Both the position numbers and the translations under genes were made by a program. From positions 242,987 to 306,986 of the forward strand of contig JAHEIH010000026.1 of the NCBI GenBank assembly GCA_024639455.1: DNA of 64,000 nucleotides, given 5' to 3'. Each line of letters opens with the position of its first letter. Position 1 is the stretch's first letter. This DNA is from Cellvibrionales bacterium (GTDB taxonomy: Bacteria > Pseudomonadota > Gammaproteobacteria > Pseudomonadales > JAHEIH01). Below the pieces are notes generated by a model. The model saw only the letters and a list, made by a program, of their open reading frames with translations, was not told the origin of the DNA and did no database searches. Shown piece by piece: positions 40,808-49,420 of the stretch.

Positions 40808-42055
40808 CTAAAGCCAAGTTTCTTCCCAAGGAAAGCTAGCAAGAGGCTGACACCCTTGGGCAGTCACTAATACTTGTTGCTCGAGTTTAATACCCTCTTT
40901 ACCTCCTTCTGCGCCAATATAGCTCTCTAGAGAAATCACCATATTTTCTTCAAAAATACCGTCGTAACCAGACGTTTGCCAATCATTACCCCAATGTGCC
41001 ACCGCCGGATATTCATCGGCAAGCCCTACACCATGCGAGATACAGCAATAACGGTTGTGATAAAACTCCGCGGGTATTTGCCACGCCCTTTCAGAGAATT
41101 CACGATAGCTCATGCCCGCTTTTAAGATATCGAGATTATGATGTATTTGGGCATACGCATGCGCGTATAGACGACGTTGTTCATCACTAGGTTTGACATG
41201 GCCAACTGTCCAAGCGCGTGAAAGATCGGCACAATATCCATAAGGTCCAATAAGGTCTGTATCAAAGGCGATAATCTCCCCTTCATTCATGACCCTGTTG
41301 CTTGATTCTTGCATCCAAGGATTGGTCCGTGGCCCAGAAGACAGAAGCCTAGTTTCAATCCATTCACCGCCGTGACGAATATTTTCAAAATGTAACCAAG
41401 CCCATAACTCATTCTCAGTCATGCCGGCACGTTGTTCATCATGCATCCTCTGTATGCCTCGCTCACATACAGCAATCGTCCAACGAATCATGGCAAGCTC
41501 GTCGTCCGATTTTACCTTGCGAGCTTCCTCCATCAGGCTGTGTCCTTCGAGCACAGTGATTCCGAGGTTTTGCAGCAGTTGCAGCCCTTCTAGATCCGCT
41601 TTATCAACCGCTAGACGACGTTCGTTGCCCGCAAATTTTTTAAACGTAGTCGCAATATCATTAGCCCAATCGAGCGCTTTTTCAGATATACGGCTGCCCG
41701 CGCCAAAATAGCTATAGTTAATGGCATCACGAATTTCATCAATTTGCTGATTGCCTTCGTGCAGATGCTCACAATTGTGGAATTCCCATAAAATAACAGG
41801 ACCTTCAGCAAAAACCATTAGATATCGTGCGTGGTTATGCATCGTCCAAACCTGCATATTTGAACTATCTGATGCATAGCGAATATTGACAGGGTCATAG
41901 AGCAGAACAGCGGCACAGTTATTTTTTATCAACTGTTGGCGTACTCGCATCAGACGATATTGACAGCCTCTTTGGTGCACTTCAGGAGAAATTGGGTTCT
42001 TTAGTGGCGTATCTTTCGCCGTACTGTTCAAATATGTTTTTTTGTCTGACAGCAT
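40808..42055 (-). CDS. dddP: DddP-like M24-fold protein (candidate DMSP lyase)
   Basis: A 415-residue protein of the M24 (creatinase/aminopeptidase P) superfamily. Several blocks match DddP, the iron-dependent dimethylsulfoniopropionate lyase: LLYDPVNIRYASDSSNMQVW, HFENIRHGGEWIETRLLSSG, RTNPWMQE, and AFDTDLIGPYGYCADLSRAW. The metal ligands expected of DddP are all in place (Asp265, Asp267, Asp277, His341, Glu377, Glu392), as is the proposed catalytic Asp347 in HGVGLADEYP. The product would be dimethyl sulfide and acrylate. It could also be a related M24 enzyme with another substrate. The 5' part and upstream DNA are duplicated near 49 kb. Confidence 0.78.
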   Translation of the reverse strand: MLSDKKTYLNSTAKDTPLKNPISPEVHQRGCQYRLMRVRQQLIKNNCAAVLLYDPVNIRYASDSSNMQVWTMHNHARYLMVFAEGPVILWEFHNCEHLHEGNQQIDEIRDAINYSYFGAGSRISEKALDWANDIATTFKKFAGNERRLAVDKADLEGLQLLQNLGITVLEGHSLMEEARKVKSDDELAMIRWTIAVCERGIQRMHDEQRAGMTENELWAWLHFENIRHGGEWIETRLLSSGPRTNPWMQESSNRVMNEGEIIAFDTDLIGPYGYCADLSRAWTVGHVKPSDEQRRLYAHAYAQIHHNLDILKAGMSYREFSERAWQIPAEFYHNRYCCISHGVGLADEYPAVAHWGNDWQTSGYDGIFEENMVISLESYIGAEGGKEGIKLEQQVLVTAQGCQPLASFPWEETWL

Positions 42056-42141
42056 GACTCAGCTCTAAGCTTTTTATTGTATCGGGCTAGTGTAATGCAG
42101 AATGAATTTTTCAATCAATAGCATTACAGGCTTATCGTGGA

Positions 42142-42159
42142 GCCATCGCATGCGATGGC
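42142..42159. other. 18-base perfect palindrome upstream of the dddP-like gene
   Basis: GCCATCGCATGCGATGGC is a perfect palindrome, repeated at 49099-49116 in the second copy. It could be an operator for a regulator of the gene; there is no T-run to make it a terminator. Confidence 0.5.
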
Positions 42160-42288
42160 AAGAATTGTGTTGACATGCACAGGAAGCGTACTGCCAACGT
42201 TGTTATGCCCTGCGGGTGTAGATACCTTTTGCTTAAATTCGTCTGAGTAGCAGAATGATTTACCTCTTATGGTCCTAATAATATCTGT

Positions 42289-42321
42289 ACCATAAAAAGT
42301 GTCTATCAATCTCAGGCCTTA
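42289..42321 (-). repeat. 33-base end motif, copy a
   Basis: Reading leftwards from 42321 it begins TAAGGCCTGAGATT. It matches the inverted copy at 48217-48249 at 28 of 33 positions and lies three bases inside the right edge of the direct repeat. Confidence 0.75.
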
Positions 42322-42427
42322 CCATATAAAGTGTGAGAATTTAACACTATATTCTGAATTTAATAATAGAGTAGTAATAATATATAAATTATTTGTTTTT
42401 ATTACACAATTACACACCGCCAAGTTA

Positions 42428-42940
42428 TCATTTTGAAGCAAGATAAGTCTCTAGCTTAACGAAACAATTTATATTTGATGCTAAGTTTTTTTCATTTAGG
42501 CCTAAAACAATTGATGATTTGTTTTTAGCAACAATATAGCAGTCATCACTACTTAAATTGGAGGATACACGTGGGTATTTATATGAAGAATTTTTTCTAT
42601 TGTATGAGGATAAATCGGAAGATTTTTTTATTGTTAATGAAAATTTATTATTAGATGTCTCTTTAAATGCACCCATAGGGTTTGATGTGCAAGAATTAAT
42701 ATTAGATTTCTTAGCACATGTAAAACCGTAAAAACCTTGAGTGAACGAAATCATTCCGAATGATTCAGAATCTCCAAAATACTGATTAACGACATATGAA
42801 ATATCACCAAACGAGTTGGTGCATGTTAAAAAAAATTCATCTTCACGATCGCCAATAGATTTCTTTGACAATTCATAGCAACTGGCATTACTTATCGATG
42901 GTATCAAACAAAATGCCAAAAAAAATAAATATCGTTTCAT
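42428..42940 (-). CDS. Exported protein of unknown function (cassette gene 6)
   Basis: 170 residues, signal MKRYLFFLAFCLIPSISNAS. The mature part starts CYELSKKSIGDREDEFFLTC and has six cysteines, three near the start and middle (TCTNSF, FTCAKK, INSCTSN), so disulfides in the periplasm are likely. No family recognised. Its ATG overlaps the TAA of the upstream gene by one base, so it belongs to the operon. It is Asn- and Lys-rich, following the low GC of the cassette. Confidence 0.7.
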   Translation of the reverse strand: MKRYLFFLAFCLIPSISNASCYELSKKSIGDREDEFFLTCTNSFGDISYVVNQYFGDSESFGMISFTQGFYGFTCAKKSNINSCTSNPMGAFKETSNNKFSLTIKKSSDLSSYNRKNSSYKYPRVSSNLSSDDCYIVAKNKSSIVLGLNEKNLASNINCFVKLETYLASK

Positions 42941-43572
42941 TAGAAATCGTCAGCTAAGCTACTTTTTTTTCGATAACCTTTAGATTCTTTAACCTTTGAA
43001 GTTGACTGAGTAGATTCTGAGGAGTTTGAGGTGGCGCTATCACCTCTAGCGATATCATTATTCATCGTGACTTTGGCGTCAGCTGCAGCAGCCGATGTTG
43101 CTGGTTTCCAGCCAAGTTGAACTAAAACATATTTGCCTTCAGTATCAACGCACTCATCTAATTTAACCAAGCCCGATAACGTTTCATTTGACCGTTGTCT
43201 CAAAGTATCAAGAGTAGAGCTTAATTCTTCTGCAGTGCCTGATGTGTTGCCATCTTGATCTGTCATCTGTTTAGTATTGACCATGTTCGCAGCGACCGTA
43301 TCCGACTCAAAACCACTCTTCAAAAACTCCGCATAGGCTCTCCGTGCTTTTAACTCTGCATTTCGGCGAGCATCATTAATCAATGAACGCTTAGCGACAA
43401 GAAAAGTTCCCTCACCATACATCAATAATGCACGGACTTTACCATTGTCATCAAATTTTGGAACTAGCCCTTCAAATGCTTCGGCTTCGGCTTCAAATTC
43501 TTTACAATCGCCTGCAAAAACTAAAGATGTCATTGATAATAAAGAAATCGCAATTAGTTTTTTACCAGTCAT
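42940..43572 (-). CDS. Exported protein with the cassette N-terminal domain (cassette gene 5)
   Basis: 210 residues. After the signal (MTGKKLIAISLLSMTSLVFA) comes a domain of about 150 residues: DCKEFEAEAEAFEGLVPKFD, ALLMYGEGTFLVAKRSLIND, AYAEFLKSGF, LDECVDTEGKYVLVQLGWK. This is about two-thirds identical to the first domain of the next upstream gene. The C-terminal 35 residues are a Ser-rich linker ending KKSSLADDF. The start overlaps the upstream gene by 11 bases. I know no named family for the domain. Confidence 0.72.
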   Translation of the reverse strand: MTGKKLIAISLLSMTSLVFAGDCKEFEAEAEAFEGLVPKFDDNGKVRALLMYGEGTFLVAKRSLINDARRNAELKARRAYAEFLKSGFESDTVAANMVNTKQMTDQDGNTSGTAEELSSTLDTLRQRSNETLSGLVKLDECVDTEGKYVLVQLGWKPATSAAAADAKVTMNNDIARGDSATSNSSESTQSTSKVKESKGYRKKSSLADDF

Positions 43573-45136
43573 TTTCTACATCCTTTTTTAAATTCTCGTA
43601 CTGTTTGTCTGCATCTGTTTTTACATGTTTATAATTATTTGATGGTTTGCTTTCAAATGCATTATTATTTTCTGATTGACCGCCCATCTTTCTAATCAGA
43701 TAACTAGATAACTTTGTAGCAAAGAAGTTACCTATTTCTTCACCTGGAGTATCAGATTTTATTTTTTTATTTTTTAAAGGAAATTTTTTGTTATCAATTA
43801 AATTAGATGTTGAAACTTCAATCATTCTTGATGTGAGACTTACATTGAAAACTGTCCGTTCGATTATTGAATCGCCAATTTTTCTTGTCTCTATTTCGTG
43901 CTTAAACTTTTCTATTACTGGAATCAACAAAATATCAGCGCCAACTTTATTACCAAGCCTTGCAAGTTCAGACATATTCCCTGAGTTTGCTACTGAAGCT
44001 AGCTCAGAATTGATTTGCTTAGCGAACTTTCTATCTATTACCGTCATGGTAGTTGATTGATTAATTTGTTGTTCTAGCTCACTAACCAAGATAGCTGTAA
44101 AGATATTGTATAGCTCATCTTGGACTACTTGGTTTCCAGAAATTTGCGGGACAGCTATAACAACTGTTGATTTATTTGAATCAATTGATGAATTGTATTT
44201 AGGCATAGAGACCATGACCAACACATGATAACCATCATTATTCTTCTGTTTATTGATATAGCTCCAAGAGCTAATAATTCCTGATGTACTAGAATTTACA
44301 GAATTTGTAGTTTGGCTTGTCTCAATAGCGGCACCTATTGATTTGCCAGAGGACCCAGTTATAGACAATGAGTTTATTGAATCAATTACATTAGTTTGTG
44401 ATGCGAATTTCTCGCCAAATACTTGGGATATTGCACGAGTTAGTGCGTCGTTTGTTGCTCTATTTAGGTCTGTACCAAAACCTTCGGCCTCTACAGATAC
44501 AATACCTATTCCAGATACTTTATTGGATTTGATTTGATCATTATTTTGAGAAGAGGAAGCTGATGTTTCTTTTTGGTTAGAGTCATCATGAGGCTTTACA
44601 GTTTGATTTAAGTTATTACCTTTTGTGTTATTCATAGTGATTTTGGCATCAGCAGCTGCTTTTGAAGTTGCTGGCTTCCATCCCATAGCCACCAATACAT
44701 ATTTACCATCGCTATTAACGCATTCGTCTAACTTAACAATACCTGAAAGAACTGAGTTTGATGAAGATTTCATCTGATTTAATGTAGATGATAATTCATT
44801 GGCATATCCATCTGTTTCACCATTTTCATCTGTGATTTGAGCTGTTTCAACTAGATTTGCAGATAAAGTTTCACTGTCAAAATCACTCTTTAAAAATTCT
44901 GCATAAGCTCGTTTTGCGTTTAGTTCGGCCTTTCTTCGAGCATCATTGATTAGACTTCTTTTAGCTGTTAGAAATGTACTTTCACCATACATTAATAACG
45001 CTCTTAACTTACCATTAGCATCGAATTTTGGAATTACTCCTTCATATGCTTCTGCTTCCGCCTCGAATTCTGCACAGTCATTTGCATAACTATGAGAGGT
45101 TAGGATTATTAAAATTAAAAGCGTTATTAATCTCAT
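43562..45136 (-). CDS. Exported multidomain protein: shared N-domain, LPP20-like and CsgG-like parts (cassette gene 4)
   Basis: 524 residues. Signal MRLITLLILIILTSHSYAND, then the shared domain (about 20-175). After a Gln/Ser/Asn-rich linker, GIGIVSVEAEGFGTDLNRAT followed by ALTRAISQVFGEKF resembles the LPP20/FlgT N-domain. The last half, TVVIAVPQISGNQ, VIDRKFAKQINSELASVA, and LARLGNKVGADILLIPVIEK, is like the CsgG/FlgT-M fold of curli and flagellar assembly proteins. It has no lipobox, so unlike CsgG it is not lipid-anchored. The tail ends VENDW. An AAGGAG ribosome site precedes the ATG. Confidence 0.75.
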   Translation of the reverse strand: MRLITLLILIILTSHSYANDCAEFEAEAEAYEGVIPKFDANGKLRALLMYGESTFLTAKRSLINDARRKAELNAKRAYAEFLKSDFDSETLSANLVETAQITDENGETDGYANELSSTLNQMKSSSNSVLSGIVKLDECVNSDGKYVLVAMGWKPATSKAAADAKITMNNTKGNNLNQTVKPHDDSNQKETSASSSQNNDQIKSNKVSGIGIVSVEAEGFGTDLNRATNDALTRAISQVFGEKFASQTNVIDSINSLSITGSSGKSIGAAIETSQTTNSVNSSTSGIISSWSYINKQKNNDGYHVLVMVSMPKYNSSIDSNKSTVVIAVPQISGNQVVQDELYNIFTAILVSELEQQINQSTTMTVIDRKFAKQINSELASVANSGNMSELARLGNKVGADILLIPVIEKFKHEIETRKIGDSIIERTVFNVSLTSRMIEVSTSNLIDNKKFPLKNKKIKSDTPGEEIGNFFATKLSSYLIRKMGGQSENNNAFESKPSNNYKHVKTDADKQYENLKKDVENDW

Positions 45137-45151
45137 AAAGACTCCTTAAAG

Positions 45152-45844
45152 CTATACGAAACCAGCAAAGTCTGACTCATCAATATCAGGGGTAGCAACG
45201 CCTTTTGAGTTCATGGTAGTAAGCAAATCTTTTCCTGTTGTAACAGAATTTACAAGAAAATTAACCATGGCAGGTGCCAGTGTTGGAATATCTTTAGCAG
45301 CAGAAACGGCAGCCATACCATCACTGAATCCTGGGGTGCCTAAGCTTGTGGCATTGGTAATGATATCTTTCAAAGCTTTGCCAGTTAAAACACCTCTAAC
45401 GAGAGACGGCACATATTTAGCCGCAGCTGCGCCAAGAGCGGCTTTCTGTCCATCCGATAGTGCATCTGCAGATGCGAGCTTTTCAGAAATTAACTTTTGA
45501 GTAGATTCAGATTTTTCGCTTACAGCACCGATATCACCAGAGCCTAAGGAGTCACCTTCTTTTTCTACTTTATTGGCTTCAGTTCGCATGGCTTCAGCTT
45601 CTGATTGAAGGTCTAATGCCTCTGCAATATCTGCAGAGATGTTAGTTTGGACAACTAATTCACTAACAAAATTTGTCTTCGCTTCAGCAAAGGCTTTTGC
45701 GACTGATTTCCAACTACCACCTCCAGTATTTTCGGAACCACCAGTGACTGATTTAACTAAACTTCCAAATTGGGCTTGGCTTGAACTGACATAACCAGCA
45801 GCCGATAACATTGCCATCGCTTTTAATAATTTACGTCTTTCCAT
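45152..45844 (-). CDS. Exported Ala/Ser-rich protein with Tat-like signal (cassette gene 3)
   Basis: 230 residues from ATG 45844; this start sits seven bases from AAGAGGA, while an ATG at 45850 is too close. The N-terminus MERRKLLKAMAMLSAAGYVS has a twin-arginine (RRKLL) and hydrophobic core, suggesting Tat export. The rest is mostly helical and rich in Ala, Ser and Lys (EALDLQSEAEAMRTEANKVE), ending DIDESDFAGFV. No family recognised. Tat export of a protein with no visible cofactor motif would point to folding, or a complex, before export. Confidence 0.65.
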   Translation of the reverse strand: MERRKLLKAMAMLSAAGYVSSSQAQFGSLVKSVTGGSENTGGGSWKSVAKAFAEAKTNFVSELVVQTNISADIAEALDLQSEAEAMRTEANKVEKEGDSLGSGDIGAVSEKSESTQKLISEKLASADALSDGQKAALGAAAAKYVPSLVRGVLTGKALKDIITNATSLGTPGFSDGMAAVSAAKDIPTLAPAMVNFLVNSVTTGKDLLTTMNSKGVATPDIDESDFAGFV

Positions 45845-45862
45845 TATCATTTCCTCTTAGTT

Positions 45863-46951
45863 TTAACGTAGTCCTTTTTGCTGTAGTTGAGCTACAACGG
45901 TTTCCATCGCAAACTTTACCGCTTCATTGTAAGCGTTAGTTTCTGCTACTGATGAATTTCCTCTATCCTGTCCATATACAACTTGAGGCCTAACTGATGC
46001 TACTGATCTAGCGCGCCCATCATCCAACATCCATACTCTAAATGATACTGTTGCGGGTACTCTAACGGTGCCTCTAGCGGCATCGTTTTGTGGTACACCT
46101 ATGTCAATTGTGCCCATACCTAAAAATGTCCAGCCTGCTTCCACAGCAGCATTTTGATAGGCTTTTTGTATTCTTGTAGGCATTCGTCCAGAGCTTCTCA
46201 TTTGATCGACTATTTCATCTAAAAACGGTACGCCATCTAATTGATCAATGCCCATTGGTTCAAAACCAGAGTTGATTAAATGCTCTTCTACTGCATATGC
46301 AACTTCTTCACTTATTTCTATAGAAGGTTCATATTCGACATCATCTCTTTTTGAAACATTACTTCCGCCGGATTTTTTAACACTAAGCCCTTTCTCATTA
46401 ACCGACTCAAGATTTCTTTCCCCATCAGAAGAGCTAATTTCTTCAATAGACGCCGATTTTTGTTCTTCACTAATTTCAGTGCGTTTTACATCAAAAGATT
46501 TTCTAGAAGATTCAACTCGTGCAATGAACATCGCACCAAAATCACTAGCATCTCCAACAGATTGTGTTCCTGACTCAGAATTATTTAGCAATAAAATATC
46601 AAATGCTGAAGGATTAATTTTTGCAGAAATAGCTATTTTATATTGACTAGAACTTTTATCTTGTTTTTCTTGTTGAATAACAGCTTCAGTAACATAAGTA
46701 TCAATATTTTTCTCAATATCATTAATTAAGTTGCCGATCATTCTTTGTTTAGCTAATGGCATACTTGATACATATTTTTTTAAAGCAACCAGCTTTGCTT
46801 CTTTTAGTGCAGCGTCTCTTGCGCTATTTTTTTTGAAAAATGAGTACTTATGACTTCCTACAGCAGTTACAGAAACTAATTCTTGAGCTAAAACTGTCAC
46901 AGGGGCTAAAAGTATGAATAAGATAAAACTAAATGTTGACAAATATTTCAT
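45863..46951 (-). CDS. Exported LPP20/FlgT-like protein (cassette gene 2)
   Basis: 362 residues from ATG 46951, chosen because it starts the signal (MKYLSTFSFILFILLAPVTV) and AAAGGA lies six bases before it. The next 110 residues (AVGSHKYSFFKKNSARDAAL, then EAKLVALKKYV) look like the LPP20/FlgT N-domain. A charged Ser/Glu linker leads to a C-terminal domain (SGFEPMGIDQLD, WTFLGMGTIDIGVP, ATVSFRVWMLDDGRARSVAS) that resembles the middle domain of FlgT/CsgG. The lack of other flagellar genes argues against a flagellar role. Confidence 0.7.
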   Translation of the reverse strand: MKYLSTFSFILFILLAPVTVLAQELVSVTAVGSHKYSFFKKNSARDAALKEAKLVALKKYVSSMPLAKQRMIGNLINDIEKNIDTYVTEAVIQQEKQDKSSSQYKIAISAKINPSAFDILLLNNSESGTQSVGDASDFGAMFIARVESSRKSFDVKRTEISEEQKSASIEEISSSDGERNLESVNEKGLSVKKSGGSNVSKRDDVEYEPSIEISEEVAYAVEEHLINSGFEPMGIDQLDGVPFLDEIVDQMRSSGRMPTRIQKAYQNAAVEAGWTFLGMGTIDIGVPQNDAARGTVRVPATVSFRVWMLDDGRARSVASVRPQVVYGQDRGNSSVAETNAYNEAVKFAMETVVAQLQQKGLR

Positions 46952-46961
46952 GATAAATCCT

Positions 46962-48125
46962 TTAAAAATCACTGCTAAATACTTCTGCATAGGCTTCTTT
47001 GAGCATTTCCTTATTATTTTTAAGCTTCTTGCCACTCGATCGCTTCAAGAAATCTTTGTCAGGGTTTTCATTAATATTCTGAGAGATCTCGTTTAATAAT
47101 GAATAAATTGATTGTGTTAGGTAATAATCATGATCGATTTTTTTATCGGCAGATATAACGCCACAACTTTCCTTTGTTCGTACAAATGTTCCTTCAAATA
47201 CTTTATCCATTAACCCATCAGCGAATATCTTTAAAGATACAGCGTGACAAACAGTTTGCTGTTTCCTGTTTACTTTCACTATGGGTTTGAGGTTATTAAT
47301 TTCGATACCAATGTTAAATGCTACTTCAGATGGAAGTTTTATCGTCCGAGCTGCATTAGCAAAGGTAGCTGAAAATTCTTGGGTGGCTGAATCATTATTT
47401 AGACTTGGGACAAATGGGCCCTCAGTATTTTTTACAAGATAGGCTTCGGCTTGTTTTTTTATACTTTCTTTCCAGGCTTTCAAGTTTATGTTTTTAAGGC
47501 CATCACTAGCCGCTGACGACACATCAATTGTAGCCATTCGGATTAATTTATTTGAAAATGTGAAAGGAGTAACATTCTCAGACGCTTTAAACATTTGGCT
47601 GAACAAATTAGAACTTTCTAGGCTGCCATCTAGTAACTTTTTAAACGTTAAAAGAACGCTCTTCTCGTCTGCAGGTTCATTTAAGGTATCTGTGTATTGA
47701 ACTACAACAGGTCTTGAAGCAATAAATCGACCCGTTGAAAACTCAAAAAACATCATGGACGCGAAAACCCTGTATACATGTATGTAGCTTTCTTTATTCC
47801 CGGTCACATCTTTAACAATATTTAAAGACTCTCCTGAAATCATTGGTGTCATGATGACACCTTCAACAGCATTTCCAGAAATGAGATCTATGCTTACATC
47901 GAAGTTTTCACTTTTGAATGACTCTAGATAGTTTCGCGCCCAAATATCAATGTTACCGTTTTCGCAAATAGCGTTTTCGCCCTTGCAAAGAAATTTCGAT
48001 ATATTTGGATAAGCTGATTCTTTTTGATCCCATGAAGAAAACGATACCCCACCGTAATAAACTTTCGAAGCAAAGACGTTTTGTGTAACAAATATTAAAA
48101 TTATAAATGCAAAATATTTCATCAT
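46962..48125 (-). CDS. Exported protein of unknown function (cassette gene 1)
   Basis: 387 residues. Signal MMKYFAFIILIFVTQNVFAS, then KVYYGGVSFSSWDQKESAYP with a pair of cysteines (FLCKGENAICENG). The C-terminal half includes VCHAVSLKIFADGLMDKVFE and ESCGVISADKK, and the protein ends AYAEVFSSDF. No family recognised; the general beta/alpha pattern could be a distant CsgG/FlgT relative, but I cannot show it. It is the first gene of the operon; the next starts ten bases after its stop. Confidence 0.68.
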   Translation of the reverse strand: MMKYFAFIILIFVTQNVFASKVYYGGVSFSSWDQKESAYPNISKFLCKGENAICENGNIDIWARNYLESFKSENFDVSIDLISGNAVEGVIMTPMISGESLNIVKDVTGNKESYIHVYRVFASMMFFEFSTGRFIASRPVVVQYTDTLNEPADEKSVLLTFKKLLDGSLESSNLFSQMFKASENVTPFTFSNKLIRMATIDVSSAASDGLKNINLKAWKESIKKQAEAYLVKNTEGPFVPSLNNDSATQEFSATFANAARTIKLPSEVAFNIGIEINNLKPIVKVNRKQQTVCHAVSLKIFADGLMDKVFEGTFVRTKESCGVISADKKIDHDYYLTQSIYSLLNEISQNINENPDKDFLKRSSGKKLKNNKEMLKEAYAEVFSSDF

Positions 48126-48216: not shown

Positions 48217-48249
48217 TAAGGCCTGAGATTTATAGACCCTTCGTATAGT
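48217..48249 (+). repeat. 33-base end motif, inverted copy b
   Basis: Begins TAAGGCCTGAGATT reading rightwards. It ends four bases before the second direct repeat starts at 48254. Together with copy a it forms an inverted pair around the cassette. Confidence 0.75.
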
Positions 48250-49012
48250 GAAAGTTGCTTGATTCTTGCATCCAAGGATTGGTCCGTGGCCCAGAAGACA
48301 GAAGCCTAGTTTCAATCCATTCACCGCCGTGACGAATATTTTCAAAATGTAACCAAGCCCATAACTCATTCTCAGTCATGCCGGCACGTTGTTCATCATG
48401 CATCCTCTGTATGCCTCGCTCACATACAGCAATCGTCCAACGAATCATGGCAAGCTCGTCGTCCGATTTTACCTTGCGAGCTTCCTCCATCAGGCTGTGT
48501 CCTTCGAGCACAGTGATTCCGAGGTTTTGCAGCAGTTGCAGCCCTTCTAGATCCGCTTTATCAACCGCTAGACGACGTTCGTTGCCCGCAAATTTTTTAA
48601 ACGTAGTCGCAATATCATTAGCCCAATCGAGCGCTTTTTCAGATATACGGCTGCCCGCGCCAAAATAGCTATAGTTAATGGCATCACGAATTTCATCAAT
48701 TTGCTGATTGCCTTCGTGCAGATGCTCACAATTGTGGAATTCCCATAAAATAACAGGACCTTCAGCAAAAACCATTAGATATCGTGCGTGGTTATGCATC
48801 GTCCAAACCTGCATATTTGAACTATCTGATGCATAGCGAATATTGACAGGGTCATAGAGCAGAACAGCGGCACAGTTATTTTTTATCAACTGTTGGCGTA
48901 CTCGCATCAGACGATATTGACAGCCTCTTTGGTGCACTTCAGGAGAAATTGGGTTCTTTAGTGGCGTATCTTTCGCCGTACTGTTCAAATATGTTTTTTT
49001 GTCTGACAGCAT
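48230..49012 (-). pseudogene. Truncated dddP-like copy
   Basis: The first 253 codons match the complete gene at 40808-42055, then the frame runs into unrelated DNA at 48254 and stops after seven further codons (FHYTKGL). All metal-binding residues and the catalytic Asp of the C-terminal catalytic domain are missing, so it should be inactive. Identity wherever compared suggests a recent event or an assembly artefact. Confidence 0.9.
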
Positions 49013-49281
49013 GACTCAGCTCTAAGCTTTTTATTGTATCGGGCTAGTGTAATGCAGAATGAATTTTTCAATCAATAGCATTACAGGCTTATCGTGGAGC
49101 CATCGCATGCGATGGCAAGAATTGTGTTGACATGCACAGGAAGCGTACTGCCAACGTTGTTATGCCCTGCGGGTGTAGATACCTTTTGCTTAAATTCGTC
49201 TGAGTAGCAGAATGATTTACCTCTTATGGTCCTAATAATATCTGTACCATAAAAAGTGTCTATCAATCTCAGGCCTTACCA
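48254..49281. repeat. 1,028-bp direct repeat, copy 2
   Basis: Copy of 41297-42324 in the same direction. The gap 49013-49577 right of the truncated gene holds, in order, the rest of this repeat, an IS3 remnant, about 80 bases with a small hairpin (ACCCACC/GGTGGGT type, about 49475-49494) and a pair of 14-base repeats. I see no gene in it. Confidence 0.95.
49246..49278 (-). repeat. 33-base end motif, copy c
   Basis: The same motif as at 42289-42321, carried in the second direct repeat. It lies next to the cut edge of the IS3 remnant. Confidence 0.75.
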
Positions 49282-49420
49282 GAGACACCTTGTTCATTTT
49301 GTTTCAATATAGCCATGATTTGGCTATCGCTGTAGCTTGACTTTCTCATAGAAAACTCCTTTCGTTCATTTTAGTGGAATTTTCTACTCAAAACCTCTCC
49401 GAATATTCGGGGGGATTACA
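49281..49420 (-). mobile_element. IS3-family remnant: start of transposase OrfA and one end
   Basis: Reading leftwards from 49349 the frame gives MRKSSYSDSQIMAILKQNEQ and GVS, the start of an IS3-family OrfA, with AAAGGAG before it. It breaks off after 23 codons, exactly where the 1,028-bp repeat begins. The outer end is probably at 49420, where the minus strand starts TGTAATCC, with the TG expected of IS3 ends. The rest of the element is missing. Confidence 0.82.

Follow-up and report, generated by a model that had tools for sequence, protein, structure and literature searches.

A conserved six-gene set for putative envelope proteins in a Cellvibrionales bacterium and other bacteria

A conserved gene order with purifying selection

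Six genes on the minus strand (42428-48125) of a 64,000-nucleotide stretch of a Cellvibrionales genome, hereafter the window, form a real, conserved envelope gene set that is undescribed as far as the tools used here show. When the ORFs were re-read from the sequence, the block was found to consist of g6 (46962-48125, 387 aa), g5 (45863-46951, 362 aa), g4 (45152-45844, 230 aa), g3 (43562-45136, 524 aa), g2 (42940-43572, 210 aa), and g1 (42428-42940, 170 aa), with intergenic gaps of 10, 18, 15, -11, and -1 bases. These positions agree with a preliminary description of this DNA, which had reported six leftward genes that overlap or lie at most 18 bases apart. The starts of g5 (46951) and g4 (45844) are those favoured by the starts of their homologues.

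The preliminary description had proposed an undescribed envelope system and suggested a search for the same gene order elsewhere. Comparison of ORFs revealed the complete order g6-g5-g4-g3-g2-g1 in five other metagenome-assembled genomes (MAGs), the set thus extending to distant marine bacteria: two of Porticoccaceae (L049 and L051), one of UBA4457 (L050), one of Rhodospirillaceae (L053), and one of Pseudomonadales (L054), where g1 reaches the end of the stretch. In a sixth genome (L052) the order is truncated by a contig edge and comprises g5 (cut) through g1; this is apparently the same contig as L038 of genome G207, as length and hits are identical. The junctions are similar in the other genomes, with g3 and g2 overlapping by 11 or 20 bases and g2 and g1 by 11 bases, and dN/dS (omega) is 0.06-0.21 for L049 compared with L051 and L050. 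Since the complete order and the similar junctions recur and the genes evolve under purifying selection, the arrangement goes beyond chance. The set showed no match to a named system, and no description of it was found in the literature searched, which comprised titles and abstract openings and covered few subscription journals. With the same coverage of few subscription journals, no publication was found that treats FlgT, LPP20, and CsgG jointly.

The set is rare and patchy, since the g5 profile has matches in only 3 of 369 genomes of the class, its own genome included; single contigs could be misplaced by the binning of MAGs. A g3-only genome scan returned zero matches, and a scan with the alignment of the shared A domain detected six loci. 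Diverged versions were found as g6-g5-g4 in G021, as g6-g5-?-g3 in G565, and in G610 as an LPP20-type/DUF6844 gene followed by g5-g3-g4-g6, located between trpG and trpD. A rearranged six-gene version (g3-g2-small gene (g1')-g6-g5-g4) lies on a Caballeronia plasmid, and a four-gene core (g6-g5-g4-g3) on the megaplasmid of Cupriavidus metallidurans CH34. At these diverged loci g5 and g3 were assigned by significant scores and g6 directly only in G021 (E 6.5e-4), while the remaining assignments of g6, g4, g2, and the small gene follow position, length, and alignment by eye. Two further features were observed. In the diverged version with a DUF6844 protein between trpG and trpD (L059, 3465-10275), the g6 homologue has a twin-arginine signal; DUF6844 itself was not mentioned in the literature searched, with few subscription journals covered. 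In G207 (L038/L052), an ORF of 245 aa, exported and resembling HNH-type nucleases by eye, lies immediately downstream of g1.

The GC content of the block is 36.0%, compared with 50.5% in the remainder of the window. In the other carriers the operon has 39-61% GC, mostly close to that of its flanks; the AT-richness pointed out previously is thus a trait of this copy, but not of the system.

The direct repeat around the window copy

The block is bracketed by a perfect 1,028-bp direct repeat. Its left copy (41297-42324, plus strand) comprises the 5' part of a DddP-like gene, the region upstream of that gene, and a decayed IS3-family end, while in its right copy (48254-49281, plus strand) the gene is shortened to 260 codons. 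The operon is therefore flanked by two copies of this M24 gene, one complete (415 aa) and the other truncated (260 aa); the best NCBIfam model for the gene is DddP, at 393.9 bits and under the 600-bit cut-off. The IS remnant at 42229-42325 shares 81% identity with C15:713-820, and an inverted IS3-type terminal repeat at 48217-48249 (plus strand) is oriented opposite to those at 42289-42321 and 49246-49278. A second IS3-family element is present with its 5' end (49302-49420, minus strand), which recurs at 97% identity at the ends of two contigs of G000 (C13:244141-244259 and C14:63901-64019), and thus the element was probably active in this genome recently. The family was assigned by reading the translation of the transposase at its start rather than from a database.

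The identity of the two repeat copies points to a probable recent acquisition or rearrangement of this copy, or else to an assembly artefact. The repeat and the IS ends may have arisen when a circle was inserted by a single crossover, or by an IS-mediated rearrangement. In the sister genome, the contigs stop short of the repeat site. Neither the repeat nor the IS3-family remnants appear in the preliminary description.

Domains, export signals, and C-terminal tails of the six products

None of the six window products passed a curated cut-off in Pfam or NCBIfam, and g1, g2, g4, g5, and g6 had zero matches in Pfam, NCBIfam, and PADLOC. Searches against PDB sequences yielded no convincing relative, including for g4, and none of the six was assigned to an enzyme family or to an inner-membrane energy module. 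The product g3 comprises an A domain (residues 1-190), an LPP20/FlgT-N-like domain (about 212-310), a CsgG/FlgT-M-like domain (about 310-480), and a linker that leads to a C-terminal NDW. The CsgG family (PF03783) scores for g3 in five of seven orthologues (best E 1.4e-5). It exceeds the Pfam cut-off in g3 of G207 and of G659-G662, and reaches 39.9 bits in CH34 against a cut-off of 20.8, while g3 of the window itself is below the cut-off; the match is partial and covers approximately positions 30-155 of the 210 in the profile. Residues 212-420 are matched by FlgT-like proteins of other genomes (best E 1.4e-16). LPP20 (PF02169) scores for g3 in three of seven orthologues, below the cut-off (best E 0.029), and not at all for g5. 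LpoB and TolB_N lie just under or at the cut-off for g3 of Caballeronia and CH34; for CH34, LpoB (PF13036) reaches 22.5 bits against a cut-off of 22.3, and CsgG scores higher.

The protein g2 consists of a lone A domain, a linker, and a near-invariant tail, GYRKKSSLADDF. It resembles residues 1 to ~190 of g3 (63%), and by sequence the two regions are paralogous, a relation absent from the preliminary description. Within a genome, the A domains of g2 and g3 are 92.8% (L052) and 87.9% (L053) identical at the nucleotide level and share long identical tracts, which points to gene conversion between the two genes.

The most conserved gene is g5 (56-73% identity). Its product probably has an LPP20-like N-domain, a long linker, and an alpha-beta C-domain. 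The predicted structure has a pLDDT of 56.5 overall and 60-79 in the LPP20-like part, and in Foldseek it retrieves Tip-alpha and Lpp20 at E 0.014-0.05 with a target TM of ~0.5, with actin-capping proteins ranked in between. For g6, whose orthologues in five genomes are 38-47% identical, the model (pLDDT 50.5) probably contains two consecutive TolB-N/CsgG-type alpha-beta domains; its top matches are the LPHT ring, HpaA, and FlgT (E ~7e-4), followed by PelC, CsgG, and GNA1162. We treat the proximity of g5 to Lpp20/Tip-alpha and of g6 to FlgT/PelC/CsgG as leads from low-confidence models. Profile-profile comparison among g3, g5, g6, and g2, with very shallow alignments, detected no relation. In g4, a Gly-rich N-terminal part precedes a probably helical remainder and the length varies among orthologues, while g1, the least conserved gene (18-33%), encodes a small, exported protein that contains cysteine. 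The LPP20/FlgT-N and CsgG/FlgT-M domains proposed previously are hence borne out by sequence in g3, while for g5 and g6 they depend on weak, low-confidence models. The single-structure predictions that had also been proposed were run for these two proteins, and the predicted folds fit (Tip-alpha/Lpp20 for g5, the FlgT/CsgG class for g6) at low confidence.

Judged by eye, all six products begin with an export signal. These signals, together with conserved cysteine pairs, suggest that the products are periplasmic. In the window, five signals are of the Sec type and that of g4 is of the Tat type (motif ERRKLLK), as had been described; however, the g4 orthologues in L049-L052 have Sec-type starts (MKKT/MKNT) and those in L053 and L054 carry RR, so that the Tat signal does not characterize the system and the earlier emphasis on it is unsupported. 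No lipobox was seen in the six window products, again as described, but lipobox-like signals occur in the diverged relatives (g5 and g6 of G021, g3 of CH34). The window products also have no evident membrane anchor.

Three products end in an aromatic residue, namely g6 (SSDF), g3 (ENDW), and g2 (ADDF), and such ends are conserved in the orthologues: the tail of g2 is nearly unchanged, while g3 ends in DW and g6 mostly in SW or DF. No beta-barrel is evident in these three proteins despite their ends; the statement that no product has a beta-barrel end nevertheless calls for caution in view of the aromatic termini. An exact F, W, or Y end was found in 22 of 43 ORFs that match the g3 profile, compared with 4 of the 34 long stop-to-stop frames in the window, although the matches are related and some loci are counted twice. 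As in g2, g3, and g6, the g3-profile matches L010-L037, which otherwise differ from one another, have a low-complexity linker and then a short tail that is acidic or rich in Pro and has W, F, or Y as its last residue.

A candidate periplasmic scaffold

From the domain types and the gene association, the most likely reading, to which we give an even chance, is that the six genes encode one periplasmic, outer-membrane-facing multi-protein scaffold or ring, which would be H-ring-like but not flagellar. The Vibrio H-ring unites a number of proteins of this kind, FlgO, FlgP, and FlgT, at the outer membrane (PMC7990780); by analogy, the scaffold would be built of repeated LPP20-type and CsgG/TolB-N-type alpha-beta domains. 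The hub would be g3, with its A, FlgT-N-like, and FlgT-M/CsgG-like domains, and g2 would supply extra A domains to its layer. Other layers would be formed by g5 and g6, whereas g4 would be a helical spacer or cargo and g1 an accessory. As a guess, g2, g3, and g6 would attach to a partner by their aromatic-ended tails. Complex formation is presumed from the same data, and the ring shape is suggested by the analogy. The structural matches of g6 (FlgT, the LPHT ring, PelC, CsgG, and GNA1162) belong to one outer-membrane-associated fold class, which argues for the scaffold, and the A domains of g2 and g3 are kept alike in L052 and L053, as expected if they are packed together. The conserved order and junctions at low dN/dS, the versions in CH34, Caballeronia, and G610, the CsgG-type domain of g3, the Tip-alpha/Lpp20 matches of g5, and the lack of an enzyme family or energy module in the set also speak for it. 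Counting against it are the poor models (pLDDT 50.5 and 56.5; best Foldseek E 7e-4 for g6 and 0.014 for g5) and the fact that no lipoprotein or evident membrane anchor is present among the window members. A bolder version, which we consider unlikely, is a distinct ring or conduit machine of the outer membrane that spreads laterally, did not derive from flagella or curli, and consists of six soluble exported proteins with their own cargo and a shared aromatic C-terminal docking code.

The CsgG-type domain of g3 could instead mark a CsgG-like secretion channel, with g4, g1, or both as the exported substrate, and the Gly-rich, length-variable N-terminus of g4 would suit a substrate. However, g3 covers the CsgG profile only in part, the short segment between its central strands leaves, as far as sequence tells, no obvious room for transmembrane hairpins, and no amyloid repeats are visible in g4; a channel is thus rather improbable. 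We are equally doubtful that the products are regulators of peptidoglycan or envelope synthesis that contact a synthase in the manner of LpoB. The LpoB and TolB_N scores of g3 in Caballeronia and CH34 speak for regulators, as do FlgT-like relatives elsewhere that adjoin LpoB-like and COG3014-like genes (named by eye), but no synthase gene was seen next to any copy read, and six conserved parts exceed the needs of known activators.

An accessory substitute for the flagellar H-ring or T-ring is very improbable. Flagellin is present in 10 of 10 carriers, FlgT_M (PF16539) had zero matches in G000 and in nine of the 10 carriers (the remaining one has it at a different locus), and g6 and g3 resemble FlgT. 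Yet flagellin is also found in 30 of 38 relatives of the order, in 200 of 369 genomes of the class, and in 12 of 12 members of the family of G207, only one of which has the system. Because this base rate is so high in relatives, a flagellar link is unsupported, and no flagellar genes lie beside the copies read. A flagellar association of the system was accordingly dropped, and a link to curli is likewise unsupported. Lastly, the patchy distribution, the repeat and IS remnants around the window copy, a resolvase-like ORF near the L053 copy, and integrases near the Caballeronia copy would suit a mobile cassette that serves fitness or defence and plays no structural part, but this is scarcely credible given that PADLOC phage defence models had zero matches to the six-gene set, g5 had none in phages or viral contigs, and all products are exported.

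If the six proteins form one complex, it would be an unnamed envelope machine in cultivated bacteria, with its core in CH34, a strain open to genetics. The use of FlgT-, CsgG-, and LPP20-type domains would then extend beyond flagellar rings and curli pores, and several families absent from Pfam would gain a function.

Among known systems, the CsgG curli channel shares with the set a CsgG-family domain, which passes the Pfam cut-off in several g3 orthologues but not in g3 of the window. Unlike in curli, this domain is partial, g3 has additional A and LPP20-like domains, and csgA, csgB, csgE, and csgF are missing in the window, where the other products (g1, g2, g4, g5, and g6) have no Pfam or NCBIfam match above cut-off. 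Helicobacter pylori Lpp20 and Tip-alpha resemble the predicted fold of the g5 N-domain, but they are single-domain proteins, no sequence similarity to them was found, and there is no hint of toxin activity here. In marine gammaproteobacteria, little-described clusters (L046, L047, and L043) have FlgT-like LPP20+CsgG proteins beside LpoB-like and COG3014-like TPR lipoproteins. In place of g4, g5, and g6, none of which was found, they have TPR lipoprotein-like and LpoB-like genes, but the clusters contain LPP20+CsgG relatives of g3 in which, as in g3, a Pro/Ser-rich linker ends in an aromatic motif. The Vibrio H-ring differs from the set in that the latter has no adjoining flagellar genes, leaves PF16539 unmatched in nine of 10 carriers, does not track flagellin above the base rate, and has g1, g2, and g4 in addition; the two are alike in the FlgT-M-type domain of g3, in FlgT among the fold matches of g6, and in putative LPP20-type domains.
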